A stretch of DNA of 64,000 nucleotides from the NCBI RefSeq assembly GCF_001625445.1, contig NZ_LWHG01000011.1, positions 806,001 through 870,000 of the forward strand, read 5' to 3'. Shown piece after piece: positions 4,500 to 8,678 of the stretch; the first letter of the stretch is position 1, and the number at the start of each line of letters is the position of its first letter. The DNA comes from Haladaptatus sp. R4. GTDB taxonomy: Archaea; Halobacteriota; Halobacteria; Halobacteriales; Haladaptataceae. The position numbers were made by a program, and so were the translations under genes. The notes below the pieces were generated by a model. It saw only the letters and a program-made list of their open reading frames with translations. It did not search any database and was not told the DNA's origin.

Positions 4500-5360
4500 A
4501 TGGTAGAGTTTCAAGTACCGGAGGTCGATTACACCCGGTACTCGAATCGGCAATTAGCGGGGGTTCCCCTCGCCATTCTCGTGCTGGCGTTGCTTGTCCT
4601 CGCCGGTTGGTACATGGCAACCGGCGCACCAGTGACGCCCGGCATCGATTTTACAGGCGGAACGGAAATGAGAATTCAGACGACCGCGTCCCAACATCAC
4701 ATCGAGACGTCGTTCGATTCTCAGGTCGCGTCGGTGACGCCGTCGGCATCGCAAAACAACGTGTACCTCGTTTCGTTCCAAAGTACTGATACGAACTCGC
4801 TGACGAATCAGGCACAGAGTAACGGATACGAGGTACTCTCGGTGCAGAGTACGTCCGCGAACTTCGGAGCGGGTGCCCAGCAGCTCGCGCTGTACGGTAT
4901 CGTCGCGGCGTTCGTGGGGATGAGCATCATCGTCTTCCTGATGTTTCGCTCGTTCGTCCCCTCCATCGCCGTCGTCATCTCCGCGTTCGGCGACATCGTG
5001 ATTCCGCTCGCGTTGATGGACGTGTTCGGCATCAAGCTTTCACTAGGTACCGTCGCCGCGCTCCTGATGCTCATCGGTTACAGCGTGGACTCGGATATCC
5101 TGCTCAACAATCACGTCCTCCGGCGCTCGGGTGACTTCTACGAGAGCACCTATCGCGCGATGCGGACCGGTGTGACGATGACTGTCACCTCGCTTGCCGC
5201 GATGGTCGTGATGACCCTCGTGTCCGCCTTCTTCCAAATCGGGCTTCTCACGTCCATCGGCGTGATTCTCGTGATGGGACTGGCGACCGACCTCATGAAC
5301 ACCTACATGCTCAACTTGAGCCTCCTTCGCTGGTACAAATACGAAGGGGTGGCGCGATGA
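4500..5360 (+). CDS. secF: Protein-export membrane protein SecF
   Basis: A 286-residue six-TM subunit of the SecDF complex, an RND-type partner of the Sec translocon that uses ion gradients to help pull proteins across the membrane. The first TM is at about 20-42. It is followed by the GIDFTGGTEM motif, a short P1 domain (about 55-120), and five more TMs containing GDIVIPLALMDVFGIKLSLG and IGYSVDSDILLNNH. Archaea place secF before secD, as here, and the ATG of secD overlaps the secF stop (ATGA at 5357-5360), so the two are translationally coupled. An A/T-rich TTAAGAAAGCTTATT at about 4460-4474 is the likely promoter. Confidence 0.95.
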   Translation: MVEFQVPEVDYTRYSNRQLAGVPLAILVLALLVLAGWYMATGAPVTPGIDFTGGTEMRIQTTASQHHIETSFDSQVASVTPSASQNNVYLVSFQSTDTNSLTNQAQSNGYEVLSVQSTSANFGAGAQQLALYGIVAAFVGMSIIVFLMFRSFVPSIAVVISAFGDIVIPLALMDVFGIKLSLGTVAALLMLIGYSVDSDILLNNHVLRRSGDFYESTYRAMRTGVTMTVTSLAAMVVMTLVSAFFQIGLLTSIGVILVMGLATDLMNTYMLNLSLLRWYKYEGVAR

Positions 5361-6916
5361 GCATCCGCGACCATTGGCGTACCGGGTTGCTCCTCATCCT
5401 CCTGCTCGGGAGCGCGTTCGCGCTCTTCGTCCCGCAGGGTGGGAACAGTAACAGCCTTTCCGCAAACGCCACCTCTTCCGGTCCGACCAACCTGAAGTAC
5501 GGGCTCGACCTGGCGGGTGGGACGCAAATCCGTGCGCCCGTCAACGGTGTCACCGCCGAACAGGTACACATCGCCAACGGAACGTCCCAAACCGACCTCC
5601 AGAAGAGCGTCGCCAGCAACATCAAGGGCGTCGGTCAGGCGGACGTGAAGTTCCGGGCCACGCAGTCTGCGACTGTCGGCACCATCGAGGTGTACTCGAA
5701 GAACGTCAAACCGGCACAGCTGAAATCCGCGCTCGACAGCGCGAACGTCGAGTACGGCACCGTTCGACAGGGTGTGACCGCACAGACGCGCTCGGAAATC
5801 GTCAAGGTGTTGAGCGACAAGATTTCGAAGGCCGGACTCGCCGGTGGCCGCGTCCAGCAGGTTACGGCCGCGAACGGCGACCACTACATCCAGATCGAGA
5901 TGCCGAACGCGAACCAGTCCGAGATGCAGGAATTGGTCACCCACCGCGGTCAAGTGTCCATCGTCGCCCACTATCCGACGGACAACGGCACCGCGAACAC
6001 GACGGTGATCACCAAACAGAACATCACCAACGTCGGGCCTGCACAACAGAGCCAACGGGACCAAACGTGGGGCGTCAGCGTCTCGCTCACCGACGGCGGT
6101 GCGAAGTACTTCTCCAAGGTGATGAAGGATCGCGGATTCACCAGTTCGAAGGGAACATTCTCCTGTAACTATCCCGGGCAGTCCCCGGACCAGGCGGGAT
6201 ACTGTCTCTACACGGAAACCGACGGGAAAATAGTGTCGGGCGTGAGTATGGGTGGTCTCGCAAGCTCCATCAACAACGGCGATTTCCAGAAGAATCCGAC
6301 GTTTACGATTACGACCGGTCACAACGCCTCCGAGGCGCGGAAGATCCAGATCAACCTGCAGGCCGGTGCGCTCCCGGCCTCACTCGACACGCAGGCGGGT
6401 TCGACGACCTACCTCGCGCCGAGTCTGGCGAGCCAGTTCAAACTCTACTCGCTCCTCGCGGGTATCGCGGCGGTGCTGGCCGTCAGCGGCGTCGTCTTCA
6501 TCCGCTACGGGAAGAAGGAGGTCGCCCTGCCGATGATCCTGACCGCCCTCTCCGAGGTGTTCATCCTGCTCGGCTTCGCTGCGGCGATCAGTTTGCCGCT
6601 CGACCTCTCGCACATCGCGGGATTCATCGCGGTCATCGGGACCGGGGTGGACGACCTCATCATCATCGCCGACGAGGTGATGAGCGAAGGAAAGGTCAGT
6701 TCCTCGCGCGTCTTCCAATCGCGCTTCCGCAAGGCGTTCTGGGTCATCGGGGCCGCCGCCGCGACGACCATCATCGCAATGAGTCCGCTGGCAGTCCTCT
6801 CGCTCGGTGACCTGCAAGGGTTCGCCCTCATCACCATCCTCGGCGTCCTCATCGGCGTGCTGGTGACGCGACCGGCGTACGGTGACATCCTGCGCTACCT
6901 GCTGACGGACCGATAA
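5357..6916 (+). CDS. secD: Protein-export membrane protein SecD
   Basis: A 519-residue protein: TM1 at about 8-28, the GLDLAGGTQIRAPV motif, a large extracellular P1 region (about 55-340), then five TMs (about 350-515) with the GFIAVIGTGVDDLIIIADE motif. In archaea SecD and SecF form the accessory SecDF complex without YajC. It starts inside the secF stop codon. The extracellular part includes FSCNYPGQSPDQAGYCLY, with two cysteines 14 residues apart that could form a disulfide outside the cell. The gene ends before an AT-rich stretch that leads to the halocin-like gene. Confidence 0.95.
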   Translation: MSIRDHWRTGLLLILLLGSAFALFVPQGGNSNSLSANATSSGPTNLKYGLDLAGGTQIRAPVNGVTAEQVHIANGTSQTDLQKSVASNIKGVGQADVKFRATQSATVGTIEVYSKNVKPAQLKSALDSANVEYGTVRQGVTAQTRSEIVKVLSDKISKAGLAGGRVQQVTAANGDHYIQIEMPNANQSEMQELVTHRGQVSIVAHYPTDNGTANTTVITKQNITNVGPAQQSQRDQTWGVSVSLTDGGAKYFSKVMKDRGFTSSKGTFSCNYPGQSPDQAGYCLYTETDGKIVSGVSMGGLASSINNGDFQKNPTFTITTGHNASEARKIQINLQAGALPASLDTQAGSTTYLAPSLASQFKLYSLLAGIAAVLAVSGVVFIRYGKKEVALPMILTALSEVFILLGFAAAISLPLDLSHIAGFIAVIGTGVDDLIIIADEVMSEGKVSSSRVFQSRFRKAFWVIGAAAATTIIAMSPLAVLSLGDLQGFALITILGVLIGVLVTRPAYGDILRYLLTDR

Positions 6917-6994
6917 GCTGTCTAACTTCTCACCGTTTTCTTCGAATTTTGGTCGTGCTGTAGTAGTCGATCTCGACCGGCTCTCGGCTGTGTG

Positions 6995-7076
6995 AAGATA
7001 ATATCTGTGATATAAACAAATACATTGATATAAATTTATATAAAATTAATCAATCTAGAAATAGAATTTATCTGTG
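6995..7076 (+). promoter_or_regulatory. AT-rich promoter region of the halocin-like gene
   Basis: Eighty bases are almost pure A/T, including GATATAAATTTATATAAAA around 7026-7044, in an otherwise GC-rich genome. TATA-like elements occur several times, so the true one cannot be picked. The nearest strong one is about 55-65 nt before the ATG at 7100. AT-rich promoters of this kind often mark horizontally acquired or silenced genes. Confidence 0.5.
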
Positions 7077-7099
7077 TAGACTATCCATCTGAAGTTGCA

Positions 7100-7876
7100 A
7101 TGTCTGATCGAGATACGAACGAGGACGTCAAACGGAGCGACGTGCTACGAGACGTCACAAAAACGGCGTCGGAGACGAAGACGAAACGACGGGGATTCCT
7201 CCGTTCCTCCGGTGGTATCGCCGCATCGCTCGCTGCACTTCCCTTGGTTTCGAGGGTCACTTCCGCAGCCGAGCCGCAATCGGCCGAGGAGCGGCTTCAC
7301 GAGCTTGCAAAGAAGCACGAGTCGCCCGAAGTCGCCCGCAAAGCGGTCGAAGAGACGGGAGGAGAACTGCTACGTGCGCTTTCGACCCGTGGACTGCTGG
7401 CGGATGCCGACGTGAACTCGCTCGGTATCGAGGAAATCCTCCCCCATCAAGACAGCAGTAAGGTGGACGACGGCGTCATCGTTCTCGCGTACGACCACAA
7501 AGGGACGCTGACGACGCAAGTGCAGATAATCAAGCGACTCGCGGATAGCAGGCTCCGTATCATGGTGGAACCACAACTCGACCGCAGTTTTGCGCTGGTC
7601 GAACCCGACGCCGACGAAGAGTCAGCCACGGTTATCACGACGAACGACGACGGGGTGACTGTTCAGCGAAACTGCGATACGAGCTGGTACGGCGGCTGTA
7701 ACCACAACCCGTCAGATGACTGTGGTTGTACGGAAAACAGCATGTGTGGATGTTATCAGACCGAAGTCAGATGCTGTCAGACCCTCGGTTGCTCGATAAC
7801 CGGGTACAAATACGGAAACTGTGTTACGACGCCGAGCGGCTGTTGCACGCACGAGGGTTGTGAGTCCTTCTGCTAA
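7100..7876 (+). CDS. Tat-exported Cys-rich protein, halocin-like (microhalocin precursor candidate)
   Basis: A 258-residue protein. A twin-arginine signal (KRRGFLRSSGG at about 29-39, hydrophobic to about 50, possible cleavage after about 56) is followed by a Cys-free acidic domain (about 57-190). The last 67 residues contain all 14 cysteines (residues 192, 200, 208, 210, 216, 218, 225, 226, 231, 241, 248, 249, 254, 258). Known halocin C8 is made from a Tat-exported precursor whose N-terminal part is the immunity protein and whose C-terminal Cys-rich part is the peptide antibiotic. The layout here is the same, but the Cys spacing is not one I can match, and the C-terminal part is polar rather than hydrophobic. 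Alternatively it is a secreted metal-binding or structural Cys-rich protein. A T6 run follows at 7903. Its neighbours (secD, phosphatase) do not explain it. Confidence 0.55.
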   Translation: MSDRDTNEDVKRSDVLRDVTKTASETKTKRRGFLRSSGGIAASLAALPLVSRVTSAAEPQSAEERLHELAKKHESPEVARKAVEETGGELLRALSTRGLLADADVNSLGIEEILPHQDSSKVDDGVIVLAYDHKGTLTTQVQIIKRLADSRLRIMVEPQLDRSFALVEPDADEESATVITTNDDGVTVQRNCDTSWYGGCNHNPSDDCGCTENSMCGCYQTEVRCCQTLGCSITGYKYGNCVTTPSGCCTHEGCESFC

Positions 7877-8027: not shown

Positions 8028-8678
8028 ATGTTGGAATACCTCCAGCACGGCAGACGACGGGTCGCCGTGGAGATGGAGCGGTTGCGCCTGCGGCCGGACG
8101 CCCAGCCACGGGACACGGCACGTGCGGTGCGGTCGCTCCCGCCAGAACCGGCGGTTCTGTTTCTCTGCCTCGGAAACATCTGTCGCAGTCCGCTCGCCGA
8201 GCGATATCTTCGTGAGCGACTGCAGACGTCGGCGTTCGATTGCTCGACCGTTCGCTCGGCCGGATTCATCGAAAAGGAAGGCCGGTCGAGTCCCGACGCG
8301 GCGGTCGCCGCCGCAGGAGAACTCGGCGTCGATTTGTCCGATCACCGTTCGCAGTGCGTGGACGAGACCATGTTGCGCGAGAGCGACCTCGTCCTGCTCA
8401 TGGACGCGTGGAACTACTGGTATCTGAAACGCGACTACCCCGACGCGCTCGGGAAGGCCTACTTCGCGCGGTCGTTCGACGCCTCCCCGGAGTTCGAAAT
8501 CGAGGACCCGTACGACGCCGACAGAGCCACGTTTCGGCGGGTGTACGGCGAAGTCACGGGAGCGGTGGATGCGTTTCTGGCGACCGTCGAAGACGGTGAA
8601 AGCGAGGTGAGTGAGAACGACGTGGTGAACGGGAACGTCGCGGGGGAGGAAACGCGGGCGGAGGACCGGAGCGCATGA
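8028..8678 (+). CDS. Low-molecular-weight protein tyrosine phosphatase family protein
   Basis: About 216 residues. After an N-terminal extension (about 1-45, basic, with MLEYLQHGRRR) comes the LMW-PTP fold beginning LFLCLGNICRSPLAER, the C-x5-R-S phosphate loop. The general-acid region is IEDPYDADRATFRRVY. This family hydrolyses phosphotyrosine or arsenate. The second Cys of the loop (CLGNIC) is also present, as in redox-regulated members. The C-terminal 30 residues are an acidic tail. The start at 8028 fits the TATA box at 7997. The ATGA overlap with the ATP-grasp gene implies a coupled two-gene operon. Confidence 0.85.
   Translation: MLEYLQHGRRRVAVEMERLRLRPDAQPRDTARAVRSLPPEPAVLFLCLGNICRSPLAERYLRERLQTSAFDCSTVRSAGFIEKEGRSSPDAAVAAAGELGVDLSDHRSQCVDETMLRESDLVLLMDAWNYWYLKRDYPDALGKAYFARSFDASPEFEIEDPYDADRATFRRVYGEVTGAVDAFLATVEDGESEVSENDVVNGNVAGEETRAEDRSA

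Follow-up and report, generated by a model that had tools for sequence, protein, structure and literature searches.

The gene and its product

We analyzed a 64,000-nucleotide stretch of Haladaptatus sp. R4 DNA (contig NZ_LWHG01000011.1, positions 806,001 to 870,000; hereafter, the window), focusing on a gene at 7100..7876 that has an ATG start and encodes a precursor protein of 258 amino acids plus stop. The gene is flanked on the left by secD (5357..6916, matching NF006215 above cut-off) and on the right by a low-molecular-weight phosphatase-like gene (8028..8678; its open reading frame (ORF) is listed from 8013, and the ATG at 8028 matches its relatives). All window features described here lie on the + strand.

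The protein can be divided into four parts. Residues 1-56 (7100..7267) comprise an N-terminal extension and a twin-arginine translocation (Tat) signal, assigned from the sequence and from Tat models of Pfam and NCBIfam that matched below cut-off only; the motif KRRGFL (residues 29-34) precedes a hydrophobic stretch, its twin arginine (residues 30-31, 7187-7192) is near-invariant in a 100-row family alignment, and signal-peptide cleavage is proposed to occur after TSA. Residues 57-169 (7268..7606) form an acidic central domain without cysteines, delimited by an alignment (A2) and profile searches, and constitute the conserved module of the family described below. It is followed by an acidic linker with VTVQRN at its end (residues 170-191, 7607..7672), a putative release site suggested by the composition ahead of the first cysteine in 116 family members, and by a cysteine-rich tail (residues 192-258, 7673..7873), supported by the sequence, the ratio of nonsynonymous to synonymous substitution rates (dN/dS) and the count of a core motif. 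This tail holds all 14 cysteines of the protein, an arrangement with a chance of 2e-9 if residues were placed randomly, and their spacing is 7-7-1-5-1-6-0-4-9-6-0-4-3. It includes the recurrent core EVRCCQTLGC and is polar, with a grand average of hydropathy (GRAVY) of -0.41.

The initial annotation had described a Tat signal, a cysteine-free acidic central domain and a C-terminus with 14 cysteines in the last 67 residues, and all three are present in the sequence, the cysteines as counted from the ORF. Scanning the protein against Pfam and NCBIfam revealed no family, only the sub-threshold Tat signals and one incidental weak match, and sequence searches of the PDB with A2 or with an alignment of the whole protein (A3) returned nothing better than E 0.5.

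A family with a common leader and variable tails

A search of 59 related genomes with the whole window protein found relatives in 21 of them, the window's own included. Because the leaders of these relatives aligned while their C-termini appeared different, we built a profile from the cysteine-free central domain only (A2, 29 rows). This leader-only profile matched 59 of 392 genomes of the order, representing 24 of 95 genera, with up to 10 matches per genome; the source genomes of A2, those of the first relative searches, are counted again within the 59/392. Of 294 genomes drawn from the phylum, four had A2 matches, all of them in the same order, and a scan of the genome_contigs collection confirmed no relative.

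From the family loci we extracted 121 distinct ORFs, 116 of which carry a tail with at least four cysteines; 13 of the 135 A2 match rows, all weak (E 3e-7 or worse), lie outside this set. The five ORFs with fewer tail cysteines (L110, L016, one L166 frame, L151 and L172) were left out of the cysteine counts. In L016 and L166 the leader domain goes out of frame ahead of the tail, and these are likely decayed copies or sequencing frameshifts. Since the profile holds no tail, the constancy of a cysteine-rich tail was not built into the search, and the fact that relatives found by a cysteine-free domain alone retain such a tail indicates that the cysteine pattern is more than chance. The cysteine-free domain is itself kept in 110 of the 116 members.

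The window's own genome (G000) has three further members, L158 (C28:325858-326487), L159 (C28:523445-523855) and L160 (C7:50913-51212), with different tails of 10, 10 and 22 cysteines, respectively. Scanning 100 members against Pfam and NCBIfam yielded Tat signals and isolated weak matches only, and no family model. A crude pattern detected two RR-x-x-L-like motifs in 6 of 116 members, and in L012, L018, L019, L008 and L014 the second motif lies 15-30 residues ahead of the Tat twin arginine.

It is well supported by these searches that the window gene belongs to a large, unnamed haloarchaeal family of Tat-secreted, disulfide-rich proteins with variable tails. Literature searches, limited to open-licence papers and mostly to listings, found no description of the family; the likeliest overlap is with Makarova et al. 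2019 (mBio 10:e00715-19), reportedly a survey on archaeal antimicrobial peptides, which a review describes (PMC6869823).

Tail cysteines occur in even numbers

The number of tail cysteines is even in 114 of the 116 members and in 70/70 tail clusters (representatives sharing <50% tail identity). When every cysteine from the domain start onward is included, 110 members have an even number and 6 an odd one; seven other residues, taken as controls, occur in even numbers in just 50-67 of the 116 tails. The tail totals comprise 58 multiples of four (4n), 56 of the form 4n+2 and 2 odd numbers, and the last cysteine lies three residues or fewer from the C-terminus in 108 members. Because almost all counts are even, without preference for multiples of four, fully paired disulfides explain them; they are not accounted for by four-cysteine metal sites, by clusters of the metallothionein type or by lanthionine rings. 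We consider the existence of the family and the disulfide pairing of its tails, taken jointly, to be very probable.

The same counts disfavor the alternative offered in the initial annotation, namely that the product is a secreted metal-binding protein whose cysteines hold Zn, Cu or Fe-S centers. Dense cysteines with CXC and CC motifs, as found in the window tail, would suit such a protein, but four-cysteine sites would not be expected to yield 4n+2 totals as frequently as 4n, nor would metallothionein-like clusters be expected to avoid odd counts almost entirely. Moreover, export leads to an oxidizing medium, and the neighbor groups that we read included no recurring metal gene, all of which makes metal binding very improbable; it was rejected as the main role.

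Even less credible is a lanthipeptide, or another modified peptide with cysteines joined to Ser/Thr. The enzymes of archaeal lanthipeptides are reported, in the cited part of one study (PMC12144867), mainly from Halorussus, Haloferax and Haladaptatus, and such peptides resemble the family in being secreted, cysteine-containing and haloarchaeal (PMC12144867 and PMC10105419, parts cited). However, rings between Cys and Ser/Thr need no even cysteine number, the large domain of the Tat precursor is the wrong layout for them, and the parity points to disulfides instead. No LanM was recognized among the neighbor groups read, in a survey that included no search aimed at LanM.

Leader and tail behave as separate modules

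Between the window gene and its orthologue in G004, dN/dS was 0.06 for the tail and 0.16 for the domain, and the tail value was the lower one in most close pairs (exceptions include L009-L011 and L168-L169); these are Nei-Gojobori estimates at high dS (0.8-1.4 for the window pair). Other pairs combined leader identities of 79, 72, 62, 61 and 58% with tail identities of 39, 43, 38, 38 and 36%, respectively, and such pairs of conserved leader and divergent tail include tandem neighbors in L089 and L119. Among orthologues the tail is better conserved than the leader, but from one paralogue to another it has been exchanged or remodeled. The initially suggested division into a domain and a peptide is borne out by this modular behavior, and the tail is probably a separate effector.

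Conserved leaders with interchangeable tails (58-79% and 36-43% identical, respectively) are also a hallmark of polymorphic toxins, which share with the family a conserved N-terminal part, interchangeable C-terminal modules and partner genes that vary by lineage. Unlike polymorphic toxins, the family proteins are small and Tat-exported, carry disulfide-rich tails instead of enzymatic toxin domains, and have no consistent immunity gene directly downstream.

The core E-x-x-CC-x(2-10)-C was present in 26 of 116 tails compared to 6.4 in shuffles, and so at least some of the tails are probably of one ancestral fold. A CC-centered core common to all tails was considered and rejected, as it is found in this subset only and broader CC or CXC patterns were not above shuffles.

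Across the 116 members, the first cysteine is preceded by an acidic or glycine-rich stretch and then by a weak V-T-(T/P)-Q preference, and the motif [STD][TP]Q is 13 times denser in this region than in the domain. A 2026 paper attributes the release of active fragments from secreted haloarchaeal precursors to serine proteases outside the cell (PMC12893001), which makes the proposed cleavage of the linker plausible in haloarchaea; we think that the peptide could equally well be released from its precursor or remain attached to it. HalH4 and HFX_0892, the precursors in question, are secreted haloarchaeal proteins like ours, with a protease-freed active fragment that is described for them and proposed here. 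Their fragments are not described as cysteine-rich, cysteine going unmentioned in the text, and it is by this description rather than by sequence that they are set apart.

The likeness to halocin C8 is in layout

According to the cited part of a review (PMC11509114), the ProC8 precursor leaves the cell by Tat and is processed into HalI and the 76-residue HalC8. The initial annotation had likened the layout of the window protein to that of this precursor, rightly so, as both consist of a Tat signal, a cysteine-free domain and a C-terminal cysteine-rich peptide, and share an even cysteine number, an AT-rich upstream region and the same order of hosts. A profile check that the annotation had recommended was nevertheless negative: TIGR04449, the model of the halocin C8-like domain, matched neither the window protein (E up to 10) nor any of 100 members (0/100, E up to 0.01), and hhalign of A2 against a profile of the HalI-type domain (A8) gave a probability of 3.3%. 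The HalC8 sequence itself matched TIGR04449 at 1.1e-16. Homology to HalC8 was rejected on these grounds, and since neither domain nor tail is detectably related to HalC8, the earlier suggestion of a new class was right. The tails also differ in character, that of the window having 14 cysteines and being polar, whereas HalC8 has 10 and is hydrophobic; furthermore, the tails of the window family are hypervariable.

A search of 243 genomes of the order found HalC8-like sequences in 24. One genome, G034, encodes both a member of the window family and a HalC8 identical to the sequence used here. Were the window protein a divergent halocin C8 relative, the same order of parts would be expected, and HalC8-like tails too have even cysteine numbers (10 as a rule) and AT-rich upstream regions (median GC 0.42, n=20), but the missing TIGR04449 match, the low hhalign probability, the different hydropathy and cysteine pattern, and the presence of both proteins in G034 render such membership extremely improbable. 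The likeness to halocin C8 thus appears, on sequence comparison, to be one of layout only.

In HalC8-like precursors, TTQ, STQ or HTQ often lies shortly ahead of the first cysteine (L034, L048, L050, L053, L056 and L057), resembling the weak linker motif of the window family.

The window gene is an accessory insertion

Both the window's genome and G004 have a family member between the secD and phosphatase genes. These two genes are separated by 113 bp in G003 and 105 bp in G008, with no member between them, and by 411 bp in G007 and 1061 bp in G001, where other sequence fills the gap. The fillings in G007 (L178) and G001 (L179) are related remnants, apparently of a membrane protein gene. The window gene is an accessory insertion between secD and the phosphatase gene. 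In G017, which belongs to another genus, two members of different lineages follow secD, one of them being the closest relative of the window protein in that genome, and the second lineage also sits at secD in G016 and G026. Because the presence of members varies among relatives and recurs at secD, the site is apparently a long-lived place where members come and go.

From the AT-richness upstream, the gene had initially been proposed to be mobile or specially regulated. Searches of plasmids, phages and viral contigs found no family match, and a plasmid, phage or viral origin was rejected; the ends of the inserted site showed no notable repeats, and a mobile element at the site was rejected as well. 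What remains of the proposal is the status of the gene as an accessory insertion and a promoter region whose AT-richness is family-wide.

Three types of neighboring genes recur beside members

We compared the neighborhoods of 110 loci, a few of which overlap (the window with L001; L026 with L166). Besides the family itself, the largest neighbor group was ABC ATPases, found at 12 loci. Genes of the ABC-2 type were located near a member in eight of them (L017, L108, L113, L115, L121, L147, L155 and L164), some 4 bp downstream of the member or overlapping it and one 2.2 kb off, and directly adjoined it in L017, L108, L113, L115, L121 and L164; the other four loci had other ABC types (L026 and L166, which are one and the same gene, L106 and L149). 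The ATPase of L115 showed sub-threshold similarity to DrrA and to ATPases for lantibiotic protection (TIGR03740, 1.3e-51). The excess of ABC-2 genes is modest (p ~2e-4 by members, ~0.04 by lineages), as judged against an approximate background of copy number only (119 matches in 10 genomes partly chosen for such neighbors).

Hvo_1808-like surface proteins (NF038145, matched below cut-off) were found at 10 loci, for example L012:305-1459, L018:247-1458, L019:2196-3347 and L142:3026-4213 (alignment A4). Such genes are common, occurring in 384 of 392 genomes at an approximate ~3 copies each; roughly estimated from this background, 10 loci are more than expected (p ~5e-12 counting members, 3e-9 counting lineages). 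Their HExxH motif is intact in some neighbors and degenerate in others (HELSS, HELSD, HELGG).

A prenyl-diphosphate-synthase-like protein carrying an EYYDIxDD motif was encoded beside members at seven loci (among others L165:861-1751, L154:1157-2002 and L091:2062-2913; alignment A5), its best PDB profile match being 4.8e-7 and the two of seven that were scanned having no Pfam match. This protein is rare: the 80 genomes searched contained 10 copies, 7 of which adjoin a family member. The partner type tracks the leader tree, which is built on few columns and has many unresolved branchings; none of 200 shuffles gave as low a value.

Putative role of the secreted tails

The best reading of the window gene, to which we give an even chance, is that it encodes a two-module, halocin-like secreted precursor. 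The Tat pathway would export the precursor, with the cysteine-free acidic domain serving as a pro-domain: it would carry the tail and either prevent it from doing harm or keep it able to fold. Once exported, the protein would form seven disulfides from its 14 cysteines, a step strongly supported by the family-wide parity, and a protease may then cut the flexible linker near VTVQ/RN to yield an acidic, polar peptide of ~7.4 kDa; for residues 190-258 minus 14 hydrogens, the calculated mass is 7.43 kDa. The tail would be the effector, a halocin-like peptide unrelated to halocin C8 and aimed at other haloarchaea, with self-protection in some lineages perhaps provided by a neighboring gene. Antagonism against other haloarchaea is the most likely role, though a putative one whose prospects we judge to be evenly balanced.

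Several observations weigh against the halocin-like reading. The three partner types, some of them 4 bp downstream, recur at a minority of loci; most members lack a detected recurring partner, and none of the three adjoins the window copy. Because leaders can remain similar while tails change, it is improbable that the leader confers tail-specific immunity in the way that HalI does for HalC8. The linker motif [STD][TP]Q is weak, present in only 20 of 116 members, and AlphaFold2 run on window residues 56-258 alone gave a predicted local distance difference test score (pLDDT) of 35.6. Finally, the GRAVY of the window tail (-0.41) is far from that of HalC8 (+0.89), and all described halocins are hydrophobic according to the cited part of the review (PMC11509114).

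Some of these points would suit a secreted disulfide-rich family without a killing role, made up of variable surface ligands, adhesins, protease inhibitors or signaling peptides, with leader and tail perhaps never separated. The recurrence of Hvo_1808-like surface proteins beside members, the polar and acidic tails, the strong purifying selection on orthologous tails and the many loci without a recurring partner gene are all consistent with it. However, conflict would better explain why close paralogues have remodeled tails and why members are patchily distributed, and ABC-2 genes recur beside three tail types, one with the ATPase resembling lantibiotic-protection ATPases. We hold a non-killing role to be the less probable explanation, albeit one of appreciable weight.

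More tentatively still, the halocin-like reading could be extended to the family as a whole: haloarchaea might carry a large unrecognized arsenal of disulfide-rich antagonistic peptides that share one Tat leader domain, are unrelated to described halocins and are accompanied by lineage-specific protection genes. The arsenal would span 70 tail clusters (<50% identity) in the genomes sampled, and protection might come from exporters of the ABC-2 type, from a surface protein whose HExxH is intact or decayed, or from the prenyl-synthase-like protein; the last of these, if so, would suggest that the peptide targets isoprenoid lipids or lipid carriers. We regard this extension as doubtful. The sequences of only a few halocins are known, as noted in the cited part of the review (PMC11509114). 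One recognizable leader with dozens of tails gives immediate access to many candidates that can be found and tested, the rule of even cysteines makes tail chemistry directly testable by mass spectrometry, and the dedicated partner genes allow paired knock-out tests of self-protection. Should antagonism fail, a hypervariable, disulfide-rich family of secreted archaeal proteins would still call for an explanation.

The upstream region is AT-rich and carries CTAG elements

A GC scan delineated an AT-rich promoter region at 6990..7099. The lowest-GC 100-bp stretch of the 64-kb window (0.21, in 10-base steps) starts at 6991, directly 5' of the gene, confirming the very AT-rich upstream region that had caught the attention of the initial annotation. 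The median GC of the 150 bp preceding each gene is 0.45 across the 116 members, compared to 0.63 for the loci. This is not family-specific, since HalC8-like precursors have it too (median 0.42, n=20).

The promoter region of the window gene includes a TATA-like AT stretch (about 7064-7072), putatively the TATA element, and a CTAG element at -45 (7055..7058), within the bin where the family's CTAG sites cluster. A CTAG element common to HalC8-like genes was unsupported, as 4 of 20 had a CTAG and one of these lay near -45. In the window family, CTAG density rises from 0.62 per kb across loci to 5.2 per kb at -110 to -11, and CTAG was found upstream of 44 of 116 members compared to 110 of 660 AT-rich control windows (p 9e-7). 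The spaced pair CTAG-N4-CTAG occurred in 8 of 116 members and 1 of 660 controls, and 27 of 60 CTAG sites fell within a single 10-bp bin, -50 to -41, a placement that suggests common regulation of a subset of members.
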